In this document: positions 14,076 through 30,804 of the stretch, piece after piece
Layout: each line of letters begins with the position of its first letter
Numbering within the stretch: the first letter of the stretch is position 1
Assembly: GCF_018598555.1 (NCBI RefSeq)
Contig: NZ_JAHEWN010000004.1
Span: 62,001 to 126,000, forward strand
Direction of reading: 5' to 3'
Source: Curtobacterium aurantiacum
GTDB lineage: Bacteria; Actinomycetota; Actinomycetes; Actinomycetales; Microbacteriaceae
DNA: 64,000 nucleotides
Notes under the pieces: generated by a model
What the model was told of the DNA's origin: nothing
What the model saw: the letters and a program-made list of their open reading frames with translations, nothing else
Databases searched by the model: none
Made by a program: the position numbers and the translations under genes

Positions 14076-15320
14076 TCAGACGCTGCGGAACGCGACCACG
14101 GCGTTGTGGCCGCCGAAGCCGAACGAGTTGCTGACCGCGAGCAGGTCGCCCTCGGGCAGCGCACGCGGTTCGCGGGCCACGTCCATGACGATCTCCGGGT
14201 CCTGGTCGTGCAGGTTGATCGTCGGCGGGGCGACGCGGTTGTGCAGTGCGAGGACGGTGAAGACCGCCTCGATCGCACCCGCACCACCGAGCAGGTGACC
14301 TGTCGACGCCTTGGTCGCGGACACCACGACGTCGTCGAGGTGGTCGCCGAAGACCCGACGCATCGCGTGGTACTCGGCGACGTCACCGACGGGGGTCGAC
14401 GTGGCGTGCGCGTTGACGTGCACGACGTCCTCGATGCTCGCGTCGGCGTGCTCGAGGGCCTGCAGGACCGCACGGGCGGCGGCGCTGCCCTCGGGGTCCG
14501 GCGCGGTGATGTGGAAGGCGTCCGAGGTGATGCCGGAACCGGCGACCTCGGCGTAGATCGTCGCGCCGCGGGCCTCGGCGTGCTCCTTCGACTCGAGGAT
14601 GAGCGCCGCGGCGCCGTCACCGAGCACGAAGCCGTCACGGGTCACGTCGTACGGACGTGAAGCGGTCTCGGGGGAGTCGTTGCGACGCGACAGGGCCTGC
14701 ATGGCGGCGAACGCGGCCAGCGGGAGCGGGTGCAGGGCAGCCTCGGCGCCACCGGTGATGACGATGTCGGCGTCGCCGTCGGCGATGTGCCGGTACGCCT
14801 CGGCCAGCGACTCGGTCGAGGACGCGCAGGCGGAGAGGTAGGTGCGGGCACCGCCACGGGCGCCGAACTCCATCTCGATGGCGGCGGCCGGACCGTTCGC
14901 CATGAGCATCGGGACCGTCATCGGCAGGACGCGACGCGGACCCTTCTCGCGCAGGGTGTCCCAGGCGTCGAGCAGCGTGTTCACGCCGCCGATGCCGGTG
15001 GCCCAGTCGACGATGAGGCGCTCGGGGACGACCGACTCGTCGTCGATGCCGGCGTCGGCCCAGGCCTCACGCGCGGCGACGAGGGACAGCTGCGACGACG
15101 GGTCGAGGCGCTTGGACTCCGGGCGGGTGAGCTGGTCGGTGAGGAACCGACGTGCCTGGCCGGCGAACTCAACGGGGAGCTCGAGCTCGGCGTAGCGCGG
15201 GTCCTCGATGCGGGTGATGCCGGACTTGCCGGCGAGCAGCGCGTCCCAGGTGTCCGGGGCGGTCGCGGCGAGGGGTGAGATCGCACCGATCCCGGTGACG
15301 ACGACGGTCTTCTTGGTCAT
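14076..15320 (-). CDS. fabF: Beta-ketoacyl-[acyl carrier protein] synthase II
   Basis: 414 residues. Condenses malonyl-ACP with acyl-ACP in elongation of type II fatty acid synthesis, in the cytoplasm. The catalytic set is complete: Cys165 (SACASST), His305 (VNAHATSTP), Lys337 and His342 (KASTGHLLGGAG); the end SNSFGFGGHN is typical. ATG at 15320. It is the last gene of the fab cluster; an 87-bp gap with a GC-rich hairpin separates it from acpP, probably lowering its level relative to the carrier protein. Confidence 0.96.
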   Translation of the reverse strand: MTKKTVVVTGIGAISPLAATAPDTWDALLAGKSGITRIEDPRYAELELPVEFAGQARRFLTDQLTRPESKRLDPSSQLSLVAAREAWADAGIDDESVVPERLIVDWATGIGGVNTLLDAWDTLREKGPRRVLPMTVPMLMANGPAAAIEMEFGARGGARTYLSACASSTESLAEAYRHIADGDADIVITGGAEAALHPLPLAAFAAMQALSRRNDSPETASRPYDVTRDGFVLGDGAAALILESKEHAEARGATIYAEVAGSGITSDAFHITAPDPEGSAAARAVLQALEHADASIEDVVHVNAHATSTPVGDVAEYHAMRRVFGDHLDDVVVSATKASTGHLLGGAGAIEAVFTVLALHNRVAPPTINLHDQDPEIVMDVAREPRALPEGDLLAVSNSFGFGGHNAVVAFRSV

Positions 15321-15363
15321 GGGACGACGTGTTCTTTCGTTGGGGTGAACAAGATGAGCGCCA

Positions 15364-15387
15364 CGGCCCGCAGGGGTCCGCGGGCCG
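15364..15387 (-). terminator. Weak hairpin between acpP and fabF
   Basis: CGGCCCGC (15364-15371) pairs with GCGGGCCG (15380-15387), 8-nt loop, no T-run. Position between acpP and fabF suggests partial termination or mRNA 3'-end protection that leaves more acpP than fabF message. Confidence 0.5.
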
Positions 15388-15407
15388 CGGCGCTCAGGAA
15401 GCTCGTG

Positions 15408-15656
15408 TCAGGCCTGGGCCTTGACGATGTAGTCGACCGCGTTGCCCACGGTCTTGAGGTTCTTGACCTCTTCGTCCGGGATCTTCACGTCGAACTTCTC
15501 CTCGGCGTTGACCACGATGGTCATCATCGAGATGGAGTCGATGTCGAGGTCGTCCGTGAAGGACTTGTCGGCGGCGACGGTGTCGGTGGCGATACCGGTC
15601 TCGTCGTTGATCAGCTCGGCCAGGCCGGCGAGGACTTCTTCGTTGGACAGGGCCAT
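15408..15656 (-). CDS. acpP: Acyl carrier protein
   Basis: 82 residues, acidic. The phosphopantetheine attachment serine is Ser41 in DIDSISMM, followed by the recognition helix. It carries growing acyl chains in fatty acid synthesis. ATG at 15656 with AAGGAGA 8 nt upstream. A -10-like TAGGCT (minus strand, 15698-15703) lies upstream, and a terminator follows fabH, so acpP probably also has its own promoter. This is a different carrier protein from the one at 27320-27619. Confidence 0.96.
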   Translation of the reverse strand: MALSNEEVLAGLAELINDETGIATDTVAADKSFTDDLDIDSISMMTIVVNAEEKFDVKIPDEEVKNLKTVGNAVDYIVKAQA

Positions 15657-15747
15657 GAGTGTTCTCCTTGAAGGGGGGTGTCGTTTGACCGTGGACCAGC
15701 CTAGGGCACGCGGGGTCCGGGTGCGCGGAGGCTCGTCGGGATGGGGA

Positions 15748-15771
15748 CCGGTCGCGCGGGTGCGCGACCGG
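15748..15771 (-). terminator. Hairpin after fabH
   Basis: CCGGTCGCGC (15748-15757) and GCGCGACCGG (15762-15771) make a perfect 10-bp stem with loop GGGT, 7 bp after the fabH stop. It separates fabD-fabH from acpP-fabF. Confidence 0.72.
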
Positions 15772-15778
15772 GGTGGGT

Positions 15779-16831
15779 TCAGGGGAGGACGACCACCTGG
15801 GCACCGAACACGAGCCCGGCGCCGAACCCGATCTGCAGGGCGAGGCCGCCCGACAGGTCCGGGTGCTCCTCGAGCAGGCGGTGCGTGGCGAGCGGGATGC
15901 TCGCGGCGGAGGTGTTGCCGGTGGTGGTGATGTCGCGGGCGATCGTGACCGTCTCGGGCAGGCCGAGCTGCTTGGCGAACTCGTCGATGATGCGGATGTT
16001 CGCCTGGTGCGGCACGAAGGCGGCGAGGTCCTCGGGGCGGACCCCGGCGGTCTCGAGCGCCTGGCGGGCGACCTTGACCATCTCCCAGACGGCCCAGCGG
16101 AACACGGTCTGACCGGCCTGACGCATGGTCGGACGGGGTGCCCCGGCCTCCCACTCGTTGTAGGTCGCGGTCATGCCGATGGCGTCCCACTTCGAGCCGT
16201 CGGAACCCCAGATCGTGGGGGCGATGCCCGGGAAGTCGCTCGGGCCGACCACGGCGGCGCCGGCACCGTCCCCGAGCAGGAACGAGATGGAGCGGTCGGT
16301 CGGGTCGACGACGTCGCTGAGCTTCTCGGCCCCGACGACCAGGACGTGGTCGGCGAGCCCGGACTTGATGAACGAGTCGGCCTGGGCGATGCCGTAGGCG
16401 TACCCGGCGCAGGCGGCGCTGATGTCGTAGGCGGCGGCCGGGGTGGCACCGATCCGCTCGGCGAGCAGCGACGCCATCGACGGGGTGGCCACCGTGTGGG
16501 TGACGGTGCTCACGAGCACGACGCCGATCTGGGACGGGTCGATGCCGGCCTTCTCGATGGCCTCGCGCGCGGCGGCCTCGGCGAGGTCCACCGCCTCGAC
16601 GTCCTTGCCCGCGCGCTTGCGGGTGATGATGCCGGTGCGCTGGCGGATCCACTCGTCGGACGAGTCGATCGGGCCGACGAGGTCGTCGTTCGGCACGACG
16701 TTCTCGCCGCGGGCGGCGCCGAACGCCAGGATGCGGGTGAACTCGTGGCCGCGGCGCTGCTGGAGCAGCGGACGCGCGGATCCGGTCGGGAGGCCCGTGG
16801 GGGCGTCCGTCGGGGTGGTCGGGTCGGTCAT
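15779..16831 (-). CDS. fabH: Beta-ketoacyl-[acyl carrier protein] synthase III
   Basis: 350 residues; starts fatty acid synthesis by condensing acyl-CoA with malonyl-ACP. Catalytic triad Cys141 (SAACAGY), His275 (PHQANIR) and Asn306 (GNTSAASIP) all present. The N-terminal ~28 residues, rich in Pro/Thr and Arg, are an extension beyond the usual ~320-residue enzyme; a start further in is possible, but ATG at 16831 overlaps the fabD stop (ATGA), which favours it. Branched-chain starter use is expected in this taxon, by inference. Confidence 0.95.
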   Translation of the reverse strand: MTDPTTPTDAPTGLPTGSARPLLQQRRGHEFTRILAFGAARGENVVPNDDLVGPIDSSDEWIRQRTGIITRKRAGKDVEAVDLAEAAAREAIEKAGIDPSQIGVVLVSTVTHTVATPSMASLLAERIGATPAAAYDISAACAGYAYGIAQADSFIKSGLADHVLVVGAEKLSDVVDPTDRSISFLLGDGAGAAVVGPSDFPGIAPTIWGSDGSKWDAIGMTATYNEWEAGAPRPTMRQAGQTVFRWAVWEMVKVARQALETAGVRPEDLAAFVPHQANIRIIDEFAKQLGLPETVTIARDITTTGNTSAASIPLATHRLLEEHPDLSGGLALQIGFGAGLVFGAQVVVLP

Positions 16832-17769
16832 GCGGTTGCGTCTGCTTCCTGGCCCGCGCGCTGCAGCAGGTCGATCGCTGCAGGCAGGTCGTCGGGGGTC
16901 TTGATGGCGACGGTCGGCGTGCCGCGGAGACCGCGCTTCGCCAGGCCGACGAGGGCACCGGCGGGTGCGAGCTCGATGATGCCGGTCACACCGGCGGCGG
17001 AGAAGGACTCCATGACCGCGTCCCAGTGCACGGGGCTCGCGATCTGCTGGACCATCAGGTCGACGAAGCGACGGCCGTCGTCGACCCGGGAGCCGTCGGC
17101 GTTCGTCCAGATCGGCAGGGTCGGGTCCTGCACCGTGGCGGCGGCCGCCAAGGGGGCGACCCGCTCGACGGCGGGGGCCATGTACCGGGTGTGGAACGCG
17201 CCGGCCACGGCGAGCGGGATCACGCGGGCCTTGGCGGGCGGGTCGGCGGCGAGGGCCGCGATCGCGTCGGCCGCACCGGCGACGACGGTCTGGCCGCCAC
17301 CGTTGTGGTTCGCGGGCACCAGGCCGTGCCCGGCGAGGGCTGCAGCCACGGCGTCGGCGTCGCCACCGAGGACGGCGGCCATCGAGGTCGGCTCGAGCGC
17401 GGCGGCGTCGGCCATGGCTCGGCCGCGCTCGGCCACCAGGGCGACGGCGTCGGTCGGCTCGAGGATCCCGGCGACCGCTGCGGCGGTGAACTCGCCCACC
17501 GAGTGTCCGGCGACCCCGCCCACCAGGGCACGGCGGCCCTCGGCGAGCAGTGCGTCGGCGGTGACCAGGCCGGCGGCGACGATGAGGGGCTGCGCGAGCG
17601 CGGTGTCCTTGATGGTGTCCGCGTCGGAGTTCGTGCCGTGCTCGGCGAGGTCGACCCCGATCGACTCGGACCACTGCCCGACGCGTTCACGGACGGTGGC
17701 GTCCTCGAGCCAGGGGGCGAGGAAGCCGGGGGTCTGGGAGCCCTGTCCGGGCGCGACGACGACGATCAC
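16828..17769 (-). CDS. fabD: Malonyl-CoA:ACP transacylase
   Basis: 313 residues. Transfers malonyl from CoA to ACP. Begins VIVVVAPGQGSQTPGF (the GQGSQ oxyanion motif) and has the active serine in GHSVGEF (Ser90) plus the His of GAFHTRYM. GTG at 17769 is 12 nt after GAGGATT on the minus strand; a longer open frame upstream (to 17820) lacks homology. The preceding 119 bp to fasR carry a palindrome that may bind FasR. Confidence 0.95.
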   Translation of the reverse strand: MIVVVAPGQGSQTPGFLAPWLEDATVRERVGQWSESIGVDLAEHGTNSDADTIKDTALAQPLIVAAGLVTADALLAEGRRALVGGVAGHSVGEFTAAAVAGILEPTDAVALVAERGRAMADAAALEPTSMAAVLGGDADAVAAALAGHGLVPANHNGGGQTVVAGAADAIAALAADPPAKARVIPLAVAGAFHTRYMAPAVERVAPLAAAATVQDPTLPIWTNADGSRVDDGRRFVDLMVQQIASPVHWDAVMESFSAAGVTGIIELAPAGALVGLAKRGLRGTPTVAIKTPDDLPAAIDLLQRAGQEADATA

Positions 17770-22654: not shown

Positions 22655-23581
22655 GTGCACGCCATCGACACCGACCCACGTGGTCACGGGGTCGCCGCTG
22701 ATGCGTACGCCCCATACCCGGTGCGCGTCACGCCCGGCGCCTGGGGGCTGAACCGCACGCTCGTGGCGGCCCCGACCGGGCCCGTCGTCGTGCACCACCG
22801 CGCCGGCCCGGACCCGCTCCTGCTGCTGCACGGCGTCGCCGGCTCCTGGTCGACGTGGACACCGCTGCTGCACGCCGCGGACGGGATCGGCGACCGCGGG
22901 CTGGTGCTCGTCGACCTGCCCGGCTGGGGATCGTCGCCGGCTCCGGACGGTCCGCTCGGGCTCGACGCCGTCACCGGTGCCGTGTCGGCCGTCCTCGGTG
23001 CGCTGGGCCTCGGCGCGGTCGACGTCGTCGGGCACTCGATGGGCGCGTTCGTCGGGCTGCACCTGGCGGTGGTGGCGCCCGAGCGGGTGCGGTCGCTCGC
23101 CCTGGTGTCCGGCACCACGGTCGCGACCGCCGGGGCTGCTCGGCACCCCGTGCGCGGGCTCCGGACGCTGCCGGCGTTCACCCTGCTGCGTGCGGGCCTC
23201 ACGGTGACCGGGGGCGCCGCTCGCCCGCTCCTCCGGGGGATCGCGCGGATCGGGCTGCTGCCGCTCGTCGCCGCGCCGGTGTTCACGCACGTGCGGCGGC
23301 TCGACCCGAGCGTGCTCGACGCCTTCGTCGAGGAGCTCCGGCCGGAGCAGTTCACCGAGGCCGCGCGGTCGGCGGCGGCGTACGACGTCGACCGGTGGCG
23401 CACGATCACCTGTCCGGTGACCGCGATGGCCGGGCGCGACGACGTGTTCGCGCGGGTGTCGGACCTCGCGGCGCTGCGGGAGCTCCTGCCGCAGACGCGC
23501 ACCGTGCTGCTCGACGACTGCGGGCACTTCGCCCACGTCGAGCGTCCCGACGCGGTCGCCGGGACACTCGGCCTCTGCTGA
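22655..23581 (+). CDS. Alpha/beta hydrolase
   Basis: 308 residues. Canonical fold with oxyanion motif LLLHGVAGSW (about 56-65), nucleophile Ser128 in GHSMGAF and the catalytic His in DDCGHFAHVE near the C-terminus. The first ~35 residues are an extension. Substrate unknown (esterase, lactonase or C-C hydrolase are all possible). GTG at 22655 is 5 nt after AGGAGG. It converges on the next gene with a 15-bp gap. Confidence 0.85.
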   Translation: MHAIDTDPRGHGVAADAYAPYPVRVTPGAWGLNRTLVAAPTGPVVVHHRAGPDPLLLLHGVAGSWSTWTPLLHAADGIGDRGLVLVDLPGWGSSPAPDGPLGLDAVTGAVSAVLGALGLGAVDVVGHSMGAFVGLHLAVVAPERVRSLALVSGTTVATAGAARHPVRGLRTLPAFTLLRAGLTVTGGAARPLLRGIARIGLLPLVAAPVFTHVRRLDPSVLDAFVEELRPEQFTEAARSAAAYDVDRWRTITCPVTAMAGRDDVFARVSDLAALRELLPQTRTVLLDDCGHFAHVERPDAVAGTLGLC

Positions 23582-23596: not shown

Positions 23597-25183
23597 TCAG
23601 GCGGGGACGGGGAACGTCGCGGCGACGCGGGAGCGCACCTCGGCGACGACGGCCTCGCGCATCGCGGGGGAGAACAGCGCGTGGTCGCCGTCCTCGACGC
23701 GGACGACGGACACCGACCCGCGACGGTCGTCACCGGGCCAGCGCCGGACGGCCTTCTGTCCGCCGAGCCGGTCGAACAGGGCGGCGTCCTCCGGGGCGAC
23801 GATCACGACGACGTCGGTGCCGTGCTCGACGAGCGGGCGGACGTGGCCGACGACCCCGCCCATCCGGTCACGGCGTGCGATCCGGTCGCGGACGGCCTTC
23901 GGCACGAACCGGTTGTAGCGCTCGCGCACCCACATCCGAGCCGGTGAGGGAGCGTCGACCGCCCGGACGCCGTCTGCGTACGAGCCGGGCTCGGCCGGGC
24001 CGCGACGGTAGTCGTTCGGGCTGATCTCGATGACCAGGCGCGGGGCCTCCTCGACGGCGCGGCCCGCGACCCAGGCGCCGGCGCACATGCCGACGAGCAC
24101 GAGCCGGTCCGAGGGAGTGGCGAGTGCGGTGACGACGGCGGACTGGTCCTCCACCCACTCCTGCGCGAACAGGAAGCTCCGCTCGTCCTCGTGCACGCCG
24201 GTGCTCTCGCCGGTGGCACGACGGTCGACCCGGACGACCCGGACACCGTCGCGGGCGAGCGCGCGGGCGAGTTCGACCTGGTAGTCGGTGGCCCCCACGC
24301 GGTGCTCGGCGCCGCCGCTGTGGAGCACCACGACGGGGGCGTCGTGGTGCTGGGTCGACGAGACGGTCTCGATCCCGAACAACCCCTGTTCGCCGAGGCG
24401 GACGATCCGCTCGGAGACGCGGCCGTCGACGTCGAGGATCTCCTCGAGGACGGGCGCCGTGACGGGCACCGCCACATCGGGTGCCCAGGAGTCGAGCCAG
24501 GCGACGACGGTGTCGACGGCGGCCCCGGGGATGCGGGCGTGGATGCTCGTGCCGTCGAGGAGCTCGGCGCTGCCGGTGACCTCGGTGACGGGCACGCCGC
24601 CCAGGCCCTTCGGCGGGGTCGCGCCCGGACGGACGAGTGCGACGGTGGGCCCGGTTCGCGGGGCGAAGGCGAGGTCCGACAGTGCGGCGGCCTCGTCGGG
24701 CTCGACGTCGAACCCGATCAGGCTCTCGACGTCGTCGACCACGCGGTCCGCACCGATCGTGATCGTCGCCAGGGCGCGCTGCCGACGGAGCCAGCCCTTG
24801 CCCGATGCCGGTGCGTCCCAGACGACGAGGCCGTCCGCGTCAGCGGCCGCGTTCGCCGCGACGAGGGCGGCCGAGGCCAGCCCGACGAAGGCGACGTGCT
24901 GCACCCCCGTCGTGCGGAGCACGGCGGCGGCGTGGCGTGCGGACCGGACCTGCGCGTCGGGCGTGGTGTCGGGGGCGCCGTCACCACGTCCGGACGGGTC
25001 GTAGCGCACCGAGGCGATGCCACGGGCCTCCAGGCGGTCCGCCAGCAGACGGAGCGTGCGGTACGCGATGACGCCCTCCTGCCCGAGCGGTGGACAGATG
25101 ACGACGCCGGCGCGCGCCGTGGCGGGCAGCTGGACCGCGGCGCGGATCGCCGGCGATCCGGACCAGCCGTGCAGCGTGGTCAC
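23597..25183 (-). CDS. Tandem alpha/beta hydrolase with cysteine nucleophile (aminoacyl-carrier cluster)
   Basis: 528 residues made of two alpha/beta-hydrolase halves. The N-terminal half (about 1-235) has GLASA where the nucleophile elbow should be and no evident triad, so it is probably inactive. The C-terminal half (about 265-528) has the elbow GMCAG with Cys367, Asp466 (VAPEDA) and His501 (DGDHALFS), a Cys-Asp-His triad as in some thioesterases and acyltransferases. It resembles the tandem hydrolases found with exosortase-type and carrier-protein gene sets. GTG at 25183 overlaps the ligase stop (GTGA). Likely role: releasing or transferring the product from the carrier protein; this is inferred. 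Confidence 0.75.
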   Translation of the reverse strand: MTTLHGWSGSPAIRAAVQLPATARAGVVICPPLGQEGVIAYRTLRLLADRLEARGIASVRYDPSGRGDGAPDTTPDAQVRSARHAAAVLRTTGVQHVAFVGLASAALVAANAAADADGLVVWDAPASGKGWLRRQRALATITIGADRVVDDVESLIGFDVEPDEAAALSDLAFAPRTGPTVALVRPGATPPKGLGGVPVTEVTGSAELLDGTSIHARIPGAAVDTVVAWLDSWAPDVAVPVTAPVLEEILDVDGRVSERIVRLGEQGLFGIETVSSTQHHDAPVVVLHSGGAEHRVGATDYQVELARALARDGVRVVRVDRRATGESTGVHEDERSFLFAQEWVEDQSAVVTALATPSDRLVLVGMCAGAWVAGRAVEEAPRLVIEISPNDYRRGPAEPGSYADGVRAVDAPSPARMWVRERYNRFVPKAVRDRIARRDRMGGVVGHVRPLVEHGTDVVVIVAPEDAALFDRLGGQKAVRRWPGDDRRGSVSVVRVEDGDHALFSPAMREAVVAEVRSRVAATFPVPA

Positions 25184-26151
25184 AGGACGAGGGCGGCACG
25201 GGTGGACGCCGGCCAGGCGTCGACGTCCGTGCCGTGGGCGGCGAACAGGGCGATGGTGATGCGCTCGAGGCCGAACGCGATGCAGGCGCTGTGCGCGACC
25301 TGTCCGTCCTCGGTGCGGAGGCCGAACGAGGTGCCGAAGTGGTCCTCGTGCAGGTTCGCGGAGCTGATCGCGGTGGCGTCGTGGTCGGGGCCGTAGACCG
25401 GCGTCACGAACTCGAACTTGAGCGCCTGCGCGACCTGGTTGCGGGCGAGCATCTGCCCGACGCGGCCGAAGAACGGGTCGTTCGCCGGCACGACGTCGAT
25501 CTCGAGGCCGAACGACTCGAGCAGGGCGCGCATCACGGGGATGCTGCCGTCGCGGTGGGCGGCTGCGGAGGCGGGCGTGCCGACGTGCACGAACTCGTGC
25601 ATGTGGAAGGCCTGCAGGCGCATCGGGTCGAGCGAGGGTTCGCGGCGGAACGAGTCGCCGAGGATGTCGAAGAACCGGCCCTGCTGGGGCACGGTGTCGC
25701 CGATCAGGCCGTAGACCGGGTGGCAGACGGCGGGGGTGAGCATGAGGTCGGCCGGCTCGAGGAACCCCTCCCAGCGCTCACCGTGCTCGCGGGCGGCGAG
25801 CAGTGCGCGGTGGGTGCGGTCGTCGCCGGTGAACCCTGAGATCGACGCGGCGAGGTCCGGGAACGACGCGATGTAGTCCGTGCGCTCGAAGGACGCGAGC
25901 GGCTCGACCGGGGGGAAGCGCAGGACCTCGGCGCCGAGGTGCTCCTGGCTGCGGACCGCGGCGGCGTCGACGGCGGTGTACACGCGCTCGAAGACGCCGG
26001 TACGGCCGTAGAGGCCGGGGGCGCCGAGGTCGAGGAGCACACCGTCGGTGAGCAGGCTGGCGCGGAGGGCGGCGCGGGCGGCGTCGAGTGCCGCGGGCGT
26101 GTCCGTGGTGGCGGTCGCGGTGGTGCTGGTGGTGGTGTCCGTGGGGGTCAC
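25180..26151 (-). CDS. Amino acid:[carrier protein] ligase, class II aaRS homologue
   Basis: 323 residues, a stand-alone catalytic core of atypical SerRS type without any tRNA-binding domain. Motif 2 lies around SFRREPSLDPMRLQ (167-180) and motif 3 in AFGLERITIA (292-301). Cys143, Glu186 and Cys290 match the Cys-Glu-Cys zinc site of this family. Known homologues in rhizobia activate glycine or another small amino acid and load it on the phosphopantetheine arm of a small carrier protein encoded nearby; here that protein is at 27320-27619. GTG at 26151 overlaps the flavoprotein stop. The N-terminal Thr-rich stretch (1-18) is probably disordered. Amino acid choice cannot be read off. Confidence 0.85.
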   Translation of the reverse strand: MTPTDTTTSTTATATTDTPAALDAARAALRASLLTDGVLLDLGAPGLYGRTGVFERVYTAVDAAAVRSQEHLGAEVLRFPPVEPLASFERTDYIASFPDLAASISGFTGDDRTHRALLAAREHGERWEGFLEPADLMLTPAVCHPVYGLIGDTVPQQGRFFDILGDSFRREPSLDPMRLQAFHMHEFVHVGTPASAAAHRDGSIPVMRALLESFGLEIDVVPANDPFFGRVGQMLARNQVAQALKFEFVTPVYGPDHDATAISSANLHEDHFGTSFGLRTEDGQVAHSACIAFGLERITIALFAAHGTDVDAWPASTRAALVL

Positions 26152-27323
26152 AGGATCACTCCCGTCATGAGGGCCAGGTCGGCGTCGTTCTTGAGGAGAC
26201 GGTCGTTGCTCACCATGACGGCGGCGCCGTGGGCGTCTCGGAGGTGCCGGGCGATGCTCATCGGACCCGAGGCCGCGTAGCCCGCGATCCCGACGATGCG
26301 CAGCGCCTTCGTGACGATGTCGGTGACGCGCTCGGACGCACCGATCTTCAGGGCGTTCGCGGCGAGGGCGTACGCGCTCGAGGCCAGCACGTCCGGGTCG
26401 TCGGCGGCGGCGTCGAACCGTTCGGCGGCGTGGCGCACCGAGTCGGCGAGGGCCTGCAGGTCGACCAGGAGCTCGGCGAGCCGGAGCGCACCGGGCGGGG
26501 TCGTCCCGACGGCGGCCCGGGCCTGCTTGCGGACGGCGCTGCGGGCACGTTCGGCGGAGGAGACCGCGATGCCGAGCCAGACCGAGGCCCAGAGCACGTG
26601 CGACACCGGCAGGACGGTCTGGGCGGAGATCGTGGCGTAGTCGTCGCGGAACACCCGGTCGGTCGTCGTCTCGGTGTCGAGGATCCACCCGTTGCTGCAC
26701 GTGCCTCGGAGCCCCATGGTGTCCCAGGTCGACGTCTGCGACAGGAGCATCGCGTCCGTCCGGCAGATCAGCAGGCGCTGGTCCGACGCCGGGGCGTCCG
26801 GGTCGCGACGGGCGGTGACGAACACCGCGTCGGCCTCGGTGGCGTACGAGATCACCGGCGCGTCCTTGCGCAGGCGGATCCGGCCGTCGTCGGTCGGCTC
26901 GATGGAGCAGGTGGAACGCCGGGCGTCGCCGCCGACGCCACGCTCGGTGGTGGCTGACGCGACGAGTGCCCCGCCCCGGACGGCTTCGATGGTCTCGAGC
27001 ACGCCGGCACCGTCGCCGCCGTGCCGCCAGAGCGCCACGACCTGGCCCTGGTGCATCGCGAACACCATGCCGGTCGCGGCACACGCCCGCCCGAGTTCGG
27101 TCGCGATCGCGGAGAGCTCCGACACGGAGGCACCCTCGCCACCGTGCTCGAGCGGCACGGCGGCGGCGAGCAGTCCGTACTCCCGCATCGCGGCGATGGC
27201 CTCGCGCGGGGGCCGGGCGTCGCGGTCGACCTCGTCGGCGAACTGTGCGGCGACCTCGGCCACCGCGCTCGCACGCTCGGCGAAACGGTCGACGACCGAC
27301 GGTGCCGGCAGGACCAGGGTCAC
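26148..27323 (-). CDS. Acyl-CoA/acyl-ACP dehydrogenase-like flavoprotein
   Basis: 391 residues with the acyl-CoA dehydrogenase fold: N-terminal helical domain (about 1-115), beta domain (about 120-225, including WDTMGLRGTCSNG) and C-terminal helical domain ending in RHLRDAHGAAVMVSNDRL. At the place where medium-chain enzymes have their catalytic Glu this stretch has none, so it may be a modified dehydrogenase or a flavin monooxygenase of the same fold. Between the carrier protein and the ligase genes, it most likely oxidises the aminoacyl group while bound to the carrier, as prolyl-carrier dehydrogenases do; that is inference. GTG at 27323 overlaps the carrier protein stop. Confidence 0.8.
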   Translation of the reverse strand: MTLVLPAPSVVDRFAERASAVAEVAAQFADEVDRDARPPREAIAAMREYGLLAAAVPLEHGGEGASVSELSAIATELGRACAATGMVFAMHQGQVVALWRHGGDGAGVLETIEAVRGGALVASATTERGVGGDARRSTCSIEPTDDGRIRLRKDAPVISYATEADAVFVTARRDPDAPASDQRLLICRTDAMLLSQTSTWDTMGLRGTCSNGWILDTETTTDRVFRDDYATISAQTVLPVSHVLWASVWLGIAVSSAERARSAVRKQARAAVGTTPPGALRLAELLVDLQALADSVRHAAERFDAAADDPDVLASSAYALAANALKIGASERVTDIVTKALRIVGIAGYAASGPMSIARHLRDAHGAAVMVSNDRLLKNDADLALMTGVIL

Positions 27324-27619
27324 GAGACGAGCTCCGCGGCGAGCTCCGCCGCGGCGGTGATCGACTCGACGGTCGCGAAGGTGGACCTGTTGAGGACGGA
27401 GTCGGGGAACTCGACGTCCAGGTCGGACTCCACCGCGAGCATCACGTTGACGGTCGCGTGCGAGGTCAGGCCGAGGGCGTACAGGTCGGCGATCGAGGCG
27501 ACGTCCCAGGCGTCGACCGTGAGCCGACCGTGGTCGGCGAGGGCGCGACGGACGGCCCGGTCGGTGGCCGGGTCGGCGATCGTCGCGGTGCTGCTGGAGG
27601 GGTTCGGGTCCTGTTCCAT
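27320..27619 (-). CDS. Stand-alone acyl/aminoacyl carrier protein
   Basis: 99 residues. The phosphopantetheine serine is in LYALGLTSHATV, which replaces the fatty-acid ACP's DSL with TSH; GLTS followed by a valine-rich helix and a DVEFPD acidic loop is the form found in carrier proteins charged by amino acid:[carrier protein] ligases. ATG at 27619 is chosen because TATGGT ends 7 nt upstream, suggesting a leaderless message; an ATG at 27631 is the alternative. First gene of a four-gene operon (carrier, flavoprotein, ligase, hydrolase), every joint being GTGA. Confidence 0.88.
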   Translation of the reverse strand: MEQDPNPSSSTATIADPATDRAVRRALADHGRLTVDAWDVASIADLYALGLTSHATVNVMLAVESDLDVEFPDSVLNRSTFATVESITAAAELAAELVS

Positions 27620-27626
27620 GACGGCA

Positions 27627-27678
27627 ACCATAAGGAAGGTCCGGCCTCGGGAAACCGCCGTGCGGGTGCGGGAAACCG
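27627..27678 (-). promoter_or_regulatory. Promoter and direct-repeat site of the carrier-protein operon
   Basis: TATGGT (minus strand, 27627-27632) is the probable -10 box. Upstream, CGGGAAACCG occurs twice (27648-27657 and 27669-27678), 21 bp apart start to start, i.e. two helical turns, with the first copy on the -35 region. This looks like a binding site for a transcription factor. Confidence 0.5.
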
Positions 27679-27699
27679 CACGGTGTCCGGAGCCGGCGG

Positions 27700-28074
27700 T
27701 CAGCGCTGGGAGAGGGCCACCGCCGTTGCCACCGCGAGGCCGCGTTCGTGCGCCAACGACACCGCGATGGGGCCGCAGCCGATCGACTCGGCCAGGGCCG
27801 CGGCAGCTCCGGACAGCTCGACGGTAGGGGCGCCGCTCGCGTCGAGCACGATGGCGATCTCGCGCAGTGGTACCGCCTGCTCGGGCGTCGGCCGCAGCAG
27901 CTTCACGACGGCCTCCTTGCCGGCGAAGCGTGCGGCGAGGCGCTCCGGGTCGTCGCCGGTGTCGGTCCGTTCTCGGGTGGTGAAGACCCGGTCCAGGTAC
28001 CGCTCACCGTGGGCAGCGACGGCGTCGACGACGTCCTCGACCGCGGCGAGGTCGGTGCCGGTGCGGATGGTCAT
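27700..28074 (-). CDS. AcpS-type phosphopantetheinyl transferase
   Basis: 124 residues, typical AcpS length. Motif 1 is RTGTDLAAVEDV (metal-binding Asp) and motif 2 ARFAGKEAVVK (catalytic Glu/Lys). It transfers phosphopantetheine from CoA to a carrier-protein serine. Its place beside a specialised carrier protein indicates a dedicated activating enzyme, although it could also serve fatty acid synthesis. ATG at 28074; a GTG one codon earlier (28077) sits 7 nt after a TAGCCT box on the minus strand (28085-28090) and may be the real leaderless start. Confidence 0.82.
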   Translation of the reverse strand: MTIRTGTDLAAVEDVVDAVAAHGERYLDRVFTTRERTDTGDDPERLAARFAGKEAVVKLLRPTPEQAVPLREIAIVLDASGAPTVELSGAAAALAESIGCGPIAVSLAHERGLAVATAVALSQR

Positions 28075-28084
28075 CACGAGGAGC

Positions 28085-28152
28085 AGGCTACGCACCGGTT
28101 GTCCACAGTGCATGCCCTGACCGGCATGGGGCACGCCGGGGGTTCGTATGAT
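28085..28152. promoter_or_regulatory. Divergent promoter region between AcpS-like and nitroreductase genes
   Basis: On the minus strand TAGCCT (28085-28090) precedes the transferase start by 7 nt; on the plus strand TATGAT (28147-28152) is a good -10 box about 29 nt before the nitroreductase ATG. No strong -35 boxes are visible, as expected for activator-dependent promoters. Confidence 0.45.
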
Positions 28153-28180
28153 CGTCGCCAGGGACCACCGAGGGGGAACG

Positions 28181-29233
28181 ATGGCATCACCGTGGACGGG
28201 CATCATCGAGGACGCGCGGCACTACCCGTCGCCGCACAACTCGCAACCGATCGTCGTGCGGGTCGAGGACGACCACACCGCGACCGTGTTCTACGACCTG
28301 CGACGGGGGTTGCCGGCGGAGTCGTTCGGCATCCCGTTCGGGCACGTCTGCGCCGGGGTGTTCCTGGCCGGGCTGGACGTGGTGGCGCGGGCGCACGGGT
28401 TCACCGTGCAGGAACGGCTCGACCACGCCGAGATGGACTTCGGTCGCCTGGACGCCGCAGGTGTCGACGCGGCGGGGGACGACCACCTGCACCGGCTGGG
28501 CACGGTGACGTTGCGTCCGCACACGGTCACCGCGGACGACCGGGAGGCCCTGGCCGGTTTCCTCGCACGGCGCACCTCACGCAGGCCCTACGACGCAACG
28601 CTCGTCGACGCCACCGCGATCGAGGCCGCGTCCGCCATCGCCTCGGCGGCCGGGCACCGCTTCCGCACCACCGACGACCGGGCAACCGTCGACGAGATCG
28701 TGCGCGTCAACCAGGAGACCCTGTTCGACGACCTGCGGCACGACGCCGTGCACGACGAGATCCTGCACTGGCTGCGGTTCTCGAAGCGGCAGGCGGCGGC
28801 CACCGGCGACGGGCTCTCCGCCGAGACGATGCTCATGCCCGGGGCGGTGCTCCGGTTCGCCATGGAGCACCGCGGACTCTGGCAGGCCCCGGGCGTCGGC
28901 GGGGTCTTCCGCCGGGTGTACCTGTCGACCATGCGGGGCGTCCGACAGCTCGCCTGGCTCGAGGGACCGTTCAGCACCCCGGCCGAGTACGTCGAGGCCG
29001 GACGGGTCTTCATGCGCATCTGGCTCGAGTTCTCCGCCCGCGGCATCGCCATGCACCCCTTCGGCACCGTGATCACCAACCCGCGGTCACACGCCGCGTT
29101 CGTGGAACGTGCGGGCGTCGACGAGTCCGACGGGCGGATGGCCTGGATGCTGTTCCGCTTCGGCCACAGCGACCCACCACCCCTGGCACACCGCCGACCC
29201 GCAGCAGCGATGACCGTCGGGGGGACCCGGTGA
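28181..29233 (+). CDS. Nitroreductase-family flavoprotein, Acg-like
   Basis: 350 residues, the length of the mycobacterial Acg/Rv2032 group rather than of classical 200-residue nitroreductases. The N-terminus has YPSPHNSQP (about 14-22), the flavin-site motif of this group, and there are two half-domains. Chemistry in this fold includes quinone/nitro reduction and also oxidation of carrier- or peptide-bound heterocycles. ATG at 28181 is preceded by AGGGGGA. Its stop overlaps the GTG of the PaaK-like gene, tying it to the biosynthetic set. Confidence 0.78.
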   Translation: MASPWTGIIEDARHYPSPHNSQPIVVRVEDDHTATVFYDLRRGLPAESFGIPFGHVCAGVFLAGLDVVARAHGFTVQERLDHAEMDFGRLDAAGVDAAGDDHLHRLGTVTLRPHTVTADDREALAGFLARRTSRRPYDATLVDATAIEAASAIASAAGHRFRTTDDRATVDEIVRVNQETLFDDLRHDAVHDEILHWLRFSKRQAAATGDGLSAETMLMPGAVLRFAMEHRGLWQAPGVGGVFRRVYLSTMRGVRQLAWLEGPFSTPAEYVEAGRVFMRIWLEFSARGIAMHPFGTVITNPRSHAAFVERAGVDESDGRMAWMLFRFGHSDPPPLAHRRPAAAMTVGGTR

Positions 29234-30804
29234 AGCGTGCAGCGGTGTTCTCGGTGGTGTGGGTGGTCGAGACGTTCGTCGCGCTGTTCATGCCCCGCGT
29301 CGGCACCCACAAGCTCCTGCTCACGCCGGGCATCGAGCCGCTCCGCTGGACCCTCGGACGCTGGCGCGCCTGGCGGACCGCGGAACGGGCTGCGAAGCGG
29401 GTCCCCGCGTACCGGGCGTTCCTGGCGGAGTCCGGACGCGCCTCCCGGCTCGACACCCGCGGCGGGATCGCCGCGGCGATGTCGGGACTGCCCGAGATGG
29501 ACAAGGACTCCTACGTCAAGCGCTGGAGCATCCCCGAGCGCTGCGTCGACGGACGCCTGCCCCGGCGCGGGGTCGTCGTCGACGAGTCCAGCGGGTCGAG
29601 CGGCACCCCGACCAGCTGGGTGCGCGGCCCCGACGAACGCCAGGCCACCCGACAGCTGCTGCAGCTCGGGTTCTCCCGCACAGCGAAGGACCTGTCCAAG
29701 CAGCCCTTCGTGCTCAACGCCTTCTCGCTCGGGGCATGGGCCACCGGGATGAACGTGACCGCCTCGCTCACCGAGTCGTCCATGATCAAGTCGATCGGCC
29801 CCGACCGCGACAAGATCGTGCAGACGATGCGGGAGTTCGGCACCGACTTCACCTACGTCATCTGCAGCTACCCGCCGTTCCTGAAGGCCCTGTTCGAGGA
29901 CGACCGGCTCGACTGGAGCCAGTACACGATCGTCGCCGCGTTCGGGGGCGAGGGCATCAGCGAGAACATGCGCGCCCACATCGAGCAGTACGCGCAGGCC
30001 GTGCTCGGCTCCTACGGGGCGAGCGACCTCGAGATCAACCTCGGCATCGAGACCCCGTTCAGCGTGCAGCTGCGCCGGGCGATCGCCGCCTCACCGGAAC
30101 TCTCCGCCGCCCTGACCAAGCAGGCCGACTACGGGGTGCTGCCGATGGTGTTCCAGTTCAACCCGTTCGGGTACCTGATCGAGACGAACGACCTCGGCGA
30201 ACTCGTCGTGACCATCGCCCGCTCCGAGAACATCAGCCCTCGCATCCGGTACAACATCCACGACCGCGGACACGTTGTGCGGATGAAGGAACTCCGGTCC
30301 GTGCTGCGGGCGACCGGGCACGCGGCGCTCGCCGACGAGGCCGAGCTCGACCTGCCGCTGCTGTTCCACTACGGCCGGTCCGACCTGTCCGTCGACTACA
30401 ACGGGGCCGTCGTCGCACCCGACGTGGTGCGGGACGTCGTGTACGGCGACACGGAGCTGCTCGAGGCCGTCGAGAACCACCGGCTGATCAGCTACGAGGA
30501 CGACCACGGCGACCGGCAGCTGCACATCGCGTTCCAGCTCGCCTCGGGTGCCGGCGGGTTCGACGCGGACGCCGCCCGCGGCGACGTGATCGCCGAGCTA
30601 CGCCGGCTGAACAAGGACTTCTCGAACGCGATCCGCACGGCCCCGCCCGGCACGCTGCCGACGGTCGCGTTCTACCCGTACCGGACGGGGCCGTTCCGCG
30701 AGGACGGCAAGAAGCTCAAGAACGAGTACGTGTGGCAGCTGCCGGCCGGGTCGGTCGAGCAGTGGGACCTCGACCTGTCGTGGGTCGCGGCGAAGGAGGC
30801 CTGA
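29230..30804 (+). CDS. PaaK-like adenylate-forming enzyme (phenylacetate-CoA ligase/CapK family)
   Basis: 524 residues. The phosphate-binding loop is SSGSSGTPTSW (about 120-130); later come GSYGASDLE (adenine-binding) and the hinge NIHDRGHVVRM. This is the PaaK/CapK branch of adenylate-forming enzymes, which activate aryl or acyl acids as AMP esters and pass them to CoA or an amine. A hydrophobic N-terminal helix (about 5-25) suggests peripheral membrane attachment. GTG at 29230 overlaps the nitroreductase stop (GTGA). It could activate the partner acid that is joined to the carrier-bound amino acid; substrate unknown. Confidence 0.82.
   Translation: MKRAAVFSVVWVVETFVALFMPRVGTHKLLLTPGIEPLRWTLGRWRAWRTAERAAKRVPAYRAFLAESGRASRLDTRGGIAAAMSGLPEMDKDSYVKRWSIPERCVDGRLPRRGVVVDESSGSSGTPTSWVRGPDERQATRQLLQLGFSRTAKDLSKQPFVLNAFSLGAWATGMNVTASLTESSMIKSIGPDRDKIVQTMREFGTDFTYVICSYPPFLKALFEDDRLDWSQYTIVAAFGGEGISENMRAHIEQYAQAVLGSYGASDLEINLGIETPFSVQLRRAIAASPELSAALTKQADYGVLPMVFQFNPFGYLIETNDLGELVVTIARSENISPRIRYNIHDRGHVVRMKELRSVLRATGHAALADEAELDLPLLFHYGRSDLSVDYNGAVVAPDVVRDVVYGDTELLEAVENHRLISYEDDHGDRQLHIAFQLASGAGGFDADAARGDVIAELRRLNKDFSNAIRTAPPGTLPTVAFYPYRTGPFREDGKKLKNEYVWQLPAGSVEQWDLDLSWVAAKEA

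Follow-up and report, generated by a model that had tools for sequence, protein, structure and literature searches.

A conserved five-gene carrier-protein block in Curtobacterium aurantiacum that may modify an aminoacyl group and transfer it to a surface sugar

In a 64,000-nucleotide stretch of the Curtobacterium aurantiacum genome (contig NZ_JAHEWN010000004.1, positions 62,001 to 126,000; hereafter the window), five neighbouring minus-strand genes encode an AcpS-type 4'-phosphopantetheinyl transferase, a carrier protein (CP), a flavoprotein with the acyl-CoA dehydrogenase fold (ACAD), a class II aminoacyl-tRNA synthetase (aaRS)-like amino acid:[carrier protein] ligase and a tandem alpha/beta hydrolase. 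This five-gene block is a real conserved module, coming and going as a unit. We see an even chance that it serves the carrier-protein-based modification of an aminoacyl group and its transfer, probably to a surface sugar, and hold the exact chemistry with less confidence than this overall scheme.

The transferase gene (27700-28074) lies about 68 bases from the CP gene (27320-27631, alternative start 27619) without overlapping it, which corrects an earlier reading. The genes for the CP, the ACAD (26148-27323), the ligase (25180-26151, starting at the GTG at 26151, also a correction of an earlier start) and the tandem hydrolase (23597-25183), the proposed acyltransferase or release enzyme, are joined by minus-strand GTGA overlaps at 27320-27323, 26148-26151 and 25180-25183.

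The ligase (324 amino acids) passes the curated equivalog model NF005479 of NCBIfam (375.7 bits, cut-off 357). It consists of the catalytic core, which aligns over its full length to the solved Bradyrhizobium enzymes (PDB 4h2w/3mey, E 7e-71). Three residues of the window enzyme, Cys in AVCHPVY, Glu in FRREPS and Cys in HSACIAFG, coincide with Cys, Glu and Cys of 4h2w, which we take to be the three zinc ligands; all three are kept. The adjoining CP passes the equivalog model NF005480 (83.3 bits, cut-off 72), matches DltC models weakly and contains a GLTS motif whose Ser presumably carries the phosphopantetheine; GL[ST]S is found in 89 of 100 aligned CP homologues. The transferase exceeds the cut-offs of PF01648 (44.9 bits, cut-off 25) and TIGR00556 (59.8 bits, cut-off 45.35) and is one of three PF01648 proteins encoded in this genome. 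Amino acid:[carrier protein] ligases from Bradyrhizobium and Agrobacterium are reportedly described by Mocibob et al. (2010/2013). The window proteins resemble them in passing the equivalog cut-offs and in their PDB relatives, but the downstream gene set differs.

By family precedent, glycine or alanine is the amino acid expected for such a ligase. Upstream of Rhodococcus tandem-hydrolase loci, an alanine dehydrogenase gene (Pfam match) and a regulator-like gene are located (L044, 3067-4790). On a Priestia megaterium plasmid (L100, 1839-15662), AcpS, CP, ACAD and ligase genes stand beside genes for an ATP-grasp protein, a transporter, an alanine permease, an alanine racemase and a D-Ala-D-Ala ligase. 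This gene set resembles a self-protected pathway to an alanine-analogue antibiotic. The alanine dehydrogenase and the Priestia locus may hint at alanine as the substrate.

For the analysis of conservation, the best 80 of 221 ligase relatives were kept and 79 loci fetched; annotated plasmid loci and stretches of other genomes were also taken in. The resulting 103 loci, near-duplicates included, comprise at least 6 kb and a ligase, and were evaluated with one best match per family within 8 kb; L127 and L128, with weak ligase-like matches under the score limit, are outside this set. The nearest ligase loci belong to Curtobacterium. ACAD and CP genes occur within 8 kb of the ligase in 99 of the 103 loci. 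Among these 99 loci, which stem from Actinomycetota, Pseudomonadota and Bacillota, CP, ACAD and ligase are collinear in 95, which puts the grouping beyond chance. The exceptions are L076, L077 and L079, where the CP gene is divergent, and L154. Wherever ACAD and tandem hydrolase occur without a protein of the family DUF1839 (PF08893), the hydrolase directly follows the ligase (68 of 68 loci).

Among 249 genomes searched, a near full-length tandem hydrolase was detected in 15 Microbacteriaceae genomes. Eleven loci from outside the genus were fetched, with L144 and L146 repeating loci already in the sample. Seven of the eleven carry all five genes in collinear order; in L153 and L154 the five families are all present but differently arranged, L152 is without an ACAD and L150 contains the hydrolase alone. 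Diverged congeneric copies in the genomes G437 and G438 were rejected as ancestors of the window block; because the G437 locus (L122) groups with another genus on the ligase tree, only the chromosomal site is shared with it. A preliminary description of the window had proposed that the aaRS-like ligase, its own carrier, a flavoprotein of the same operon and a release enzyme with a Cys nucleophile form a conserved unit. This is supported by the families, by the collinearity and by the invariant C367 of the hydrolase.

In the tandem hydrolase, Pfam detects the C-terminal half only, and NCBIfam both halves weakly. Its structural model (pLDDT 83.7) comprises two alpha/beta hydrolase halves. The N-terminal half has neither Ser nor Cys at the nucleophile elbow; C367, D466 and H501 are invariant in all 23 aligned actinobacterial rows. 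The exosortase A-associated hydrolases 1 and 2 (TIGR03100, TIGR03101), which also stem from polysaccharide loci, are distant relatives of the two halves, but the protein fails both models (65.1 vs 168.45 and 46.6 vs 202.75 bits).

Instead of the tandem hydrolase, other loci contain DUF1839. The hydrolase was found without DUF1839 in 71 of the 103 loci, DUF1839 without the hydrolase in 22, both in 5 and neither in 5. A GH2-like (beta-mannosidase-like) protein is encoded in each of the 27 loci with DUF1839 and in none of the 76 loci without it. The order CP-ACAD-ligase-DUF1839 was present in all five annotated loci on plasmids of Azospirillum, Mycetohabitans, Caballeronia and Rhizobium. On a ligase tree of 73 rows built by a quick method, the release-module label changes 10 times, and the starred branches force at least four changes for the hydrolase and at least five for DUF1839. 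This distribution indicates that release modules are interchangeable between ligase operons. In the C. aurantiacum genome itself DUF1839 had no match, whereas it was found in 3 of 3 positive-control genomes. The predicted structure of DUF1839 has the fold of CcbD/LmbD-type condensing enzymes and amide synthases. The proteobacterial loci L076, L077 and L079, with the CP gene on the other strand, harbour neither DUF1839 nor the tandem hydrolase; a homologous MetA-like gene and an Abhydrolase_3-type gene lie nearby in L076 and L079, perhaps as a third release module.

The ACAD passes the cut-offs of PF02771 and PF00441. In the alignment it carries Val at the MCAD-type Glu position and Ser at the IVD/RedW-type Glu position. 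Among 98 aligned rows, which take in copies of the window's own gene, the MCAD-type position is Val or Ile in all 97 rows with a residue and the IVD/RedW-type position is Ser, Ala, Cys or Thr in all 98; His91, Ser159, Tyr160, His242, Trp245 and Trp249 are invariant. The helix Glu is present in 4 of 4 RedW-like reference sequences, with the register of the helix position read by eye off a conserved Leu-Gly/Val-Gly anchor near a MAFFT gap; these references are homologues under the cut-off of NF045652, which none of 148 genomes exceeded, rather than proven enzymes. The window ACAD also fails this model of the RedW/PltE type (34.8 bits, cut-off 650). Another ACAD of the same genome retains the MCAD-type Glu. 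An ordinary prolyl-type dehydrogenase is disfavoured, as the family has no Glu at either of the known base positions. Because both textbook base positions are lost, imine formation or N-oxygenation is favoured over alpha,beta-desaturation. Among the solved structures that match the ACAD are dehydrogenases as well as N-oxidising enzymes, for example DnmZ.

From these components a route may be proposed, whose chemistry, amino acid and acceptor are all inferred. The AcpS-type enzyme would arm the carrier and the ligase would load it with a small amino acid, glycine or alanine. The flavoprotein would then oxidise the carrier-bound aminoacyl group, with imine formation at the C-alpha-N bond or N-oxygenation as the likeliest reactions. 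Subsequently, the C-terminal Cys-nucleophile domain of the hydrolase would take the acyl group from the carrier and pass it on by ping-pong, the acceptor probably being a sugar of a cell-surface glycan or glycan precursor. We suggest, with low confidence, a new oxidised-aminoacyl decoration of surface glycans with exchangeable transfer modules. In it, an ACAD lacking both catalytic glutamates would act on an aminoacyl thioester as amine oxidase/dehydrogenase or N-oxygenase; the tandem hydrolase, its first half inactive and its second half armed with a Cys nucleophile, would serve as acyltransferase in place of the papain-like amide synthase found in relatives.

Such operons have been the subject of a prediction before. 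In their note in proof, Iyer et al. 2010 (PMC2922099) predicted that operons of this kind serve to join an amino acid, once oxidised, to an amino sugar on the cell surface, with the redox step guessed as a monooxygenation. The SerRS-paralogue system outlined there shares with the window the aaRS-like ligase, the carrier and the redox enzyme in an operon, and several relatives lie in a polysaccharide setting. It differs in that the window lacks a DUF1839-type open reading frame and, among the genes at the block, a glycosidase; instead it possesses the tandem hydrolase with its Cys nucleophile and an AcpS-type transferase of its own. Here the Atu2574-type reading frame of Iyer et al., a predicted amide ligase, is by inference taken as the DUF1839 type. 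We regard the window block as a variant of this system, for which the attachment of an oxidised amino acid from a carrier to surface sugars has been predicted but, to the extent of our search, not demonstrated. A passage of a 2022 review (PMC9437257) calls the role of amino acid:[carrier protein] ligases unknown, and our search of open-access full texts found no paper on the DUF1839-less tandem-hydrolase variant or on experiments with the pathway. The statement of the preliminary description that downstream pathways are largely undescribed therefore applies to experiments, but not to predictions.

Two further groups of known enzymes are comparable. The lincosamide condensing enzymes CcbD/LmbD and the amide synthase CtaG (as well as BtrH and AziU2-U3) share their fold with the DUF1839 proteins of the relatives, and move a carrier-bound aminoacyl group to an amine via a Cys thioester. 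In the window block, in contrast, no protein of this papain-like fold is encoded, the hydrolase having the alpha/beta hydrolase fold. In the D-alanylation of teichoic acids by DltA/DltC, a carrier-bound small amino acid is likewise provided for an acceptor in the cell envelope. The working principle is the same and the window CP resembles DltC weakly, but the window has an aaRS-like ligase instead of an adenylation-domain enzyme, a predicted additional oxidation and no DltB/DltD. One interchangeable Cys acyltransferase module, DUF1839, is folded like an enzyme proven to join an aminoacyl group to an amino sugar. With the ligases linked to such modules, the 2010 prediction is open to a direct test that needs two or three purified proteins. 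From a flavoprotein without the usual base, chemistry is predicted that is unexpected for an acyl-CoA dehydrogenase.

A sugar or glycan as acceptor, rather than a free small molecule, is suggested by the gene neighbourhoods of the relatives. In Tsukamurella (L096) the block, there without an ACAD, lies among glycosyltransferase genes and a gene for an exopolysaccharide (EPS) glycosylphosphotransferase. GH16 and GT2 genes follow in the representatives scanned of the Rhodococcus tandem-hydrolase loci. Loci of the Salinibacterium/Leifsonia type contain GT2 genes and weak Wzz- and flippase-like matches, and genome G617 (L145) has GT4 genes. In the congeneric G437, a diverged block occupies the same site between aceE and a peroxiredoxin gene, and two GT4 genes and one Bac_transf gene come after it. 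The free small amide or heterocycle that the preliminary description had envisaged as product found no direct support. In Rhodococcus EPS-type loci, a protein without a matching Pfam or NCBIfam family (L043, 14455-15735) shows, by eye, an HGIGD motif like that of condensation-type acyltransferases.

Several observations weigh against a transfer to surface sugars or against parts of the proposed route. In the window no glycan gene adjoins the block, and the neighbours in L148 and L149 look, by eye, like housekeeping genes. EPS starter transferases (PF02397) occurred in all five genomes searched, one of them without the block; two Bac_transf genes of C. aurantiacum lie on another contig, and one block-less genome likewise has two. 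Three loci carry CP, ligase, transferase and tandem hydrolase without an ACAD, therefore oxidation is not universal, and the divergent ligase-like loci L125, L127 and L128 showed no such operon. A conserved Asp/Glu at ACAD position 374 could serve as a substitute base. The DUF1839 model is moderate (pLDDT 74.7), with the catalytic Cys within the poorly modelled first 18 residues. The missing glycan genes at the window, L148 and L149 would fit a block that makes a small, diffusible product, an oxidised derivative of alanine or glycine or the amide of such a derivative (e.g. an antimetabolite or signal), which the tandem hydrolase releases or couples; the self-protected alanine-analogue pathway suggested by the Priestia plasmid points in the same direction. 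However, the five genes here have no exporter or coupling enzyme as a conserved companion, and several relatives of the tandem-hydrolase type are situated in polysaccharide loci. We consider such a molecule rather improbable.

Alternatively it might be that the tandem hydrolase is a plain thioesterase for proofreading or for release of the oxidised amino acid, with the transfer enzyme encoded elsewhere. The generic alpha/beta hydrolase fold agrees with this, as do the top structural matches, which are esterases and lipases; among the matches listed there is no acyltransferase, which decides nothing either way. Moreover, the hydrolase accompanies DUF1839 in Azospirillum and Mycetohabitans and thus need not be a transferase there. 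Yet the nucleophile is Cys and not Ser throughout the aligned actinobacterial rows, and this genome has no DUF1839 although some transferase would be needed. A plain thioesterase appears unlikely, still more so than a diffusible product.

On the plus strand, genes for an Acg-like nitroreductase (28181-29233, alternative start 28148) and a distant PaaK-like protein (29230-30804) are joined by GTGA at 29230-29233. The open reading frames of the preliminary description and its GTGA junctions, three on the minus and one on the plus strand, were confirmed. Its family names hold for the ligase, CP, ACAD and transferase, which exceed their cut-offs, whereas the nitroreductase is only an Acg-family relative (NF047509, 116 bits, cut-off 199) and the PaaK label is very distant (NF041878, 25.5 vs 700 bits; a second model, 15 vs 646.3). 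No Pfam family matched the PaaK-like protein, and its best PDB match was 4r1l (E 0.0084).

Seven enzymes in one pathway, as previously assumed, are not supported. Among 66 congeneric genomes, 50 contain the ligase (the fragments in G404 and G409 scored as present) and 23 a full-length PaaK-like gene (24 with a 48-residue fragment in G435, which was dropped). Both genes occur in 19 genomes, PaaK only in 4, the ligase only in 31 and neither in 12, which shows no association (Fisher p 0.39). Each of the four genomes with PaaK only (one of them 76% complete) has at the site, in this order, genes for the hydrolase, an L,D-transpeptidase-like protein, the nitroreductase and PaaK, with no core gene. 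Furthermore, three Microbacteriaceae genomes of other genera (L160, L161, L162) conserve the pair at 59-61% and 65-70%, with no core genes near it and no ligase in the genome. Two PaaK loci that are more distant either lack the nitroreductase or show it as a weak match. Because the pair occurs without the core at the same site and in other genera, we regard the five-gene block as the core and the pair as separate. The joint conservation in relatives on which the preliminary description had itself staked its proposal was not found for the seven-gene set, and the seven-gene pathway as a conserved unit was rejected on the co-occurrence counts and the pair-only genomes. The two gene sets do adjoin divergently in this genome and, where both occur in the genus, are about 4 kb apart on one contig in the placements listed; nevertheless a common pathway is very improbable and would be at most a strain-specific link. 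The L,D-transpeptidase-like gene, named after an HGCVR motif seen by eye, occupies the place of the block in all four genomes with the pair and without the ligase (L118-L121), and is absent from the window and from every other sampled locus.

A further alpha/beta hydrolase gene on the plus strand (22721-23581; PF00561, 84.8 bits) converges on the core and lies outside it; it is kept at the site in four congeneric genomes without the core. About 6 kb beyond the block, at 14076-17769, the window contains what by eye looks like a fatty acid synthase cluster (FabF, ACP, FabH, FabD) with its own acyl carrier protein.
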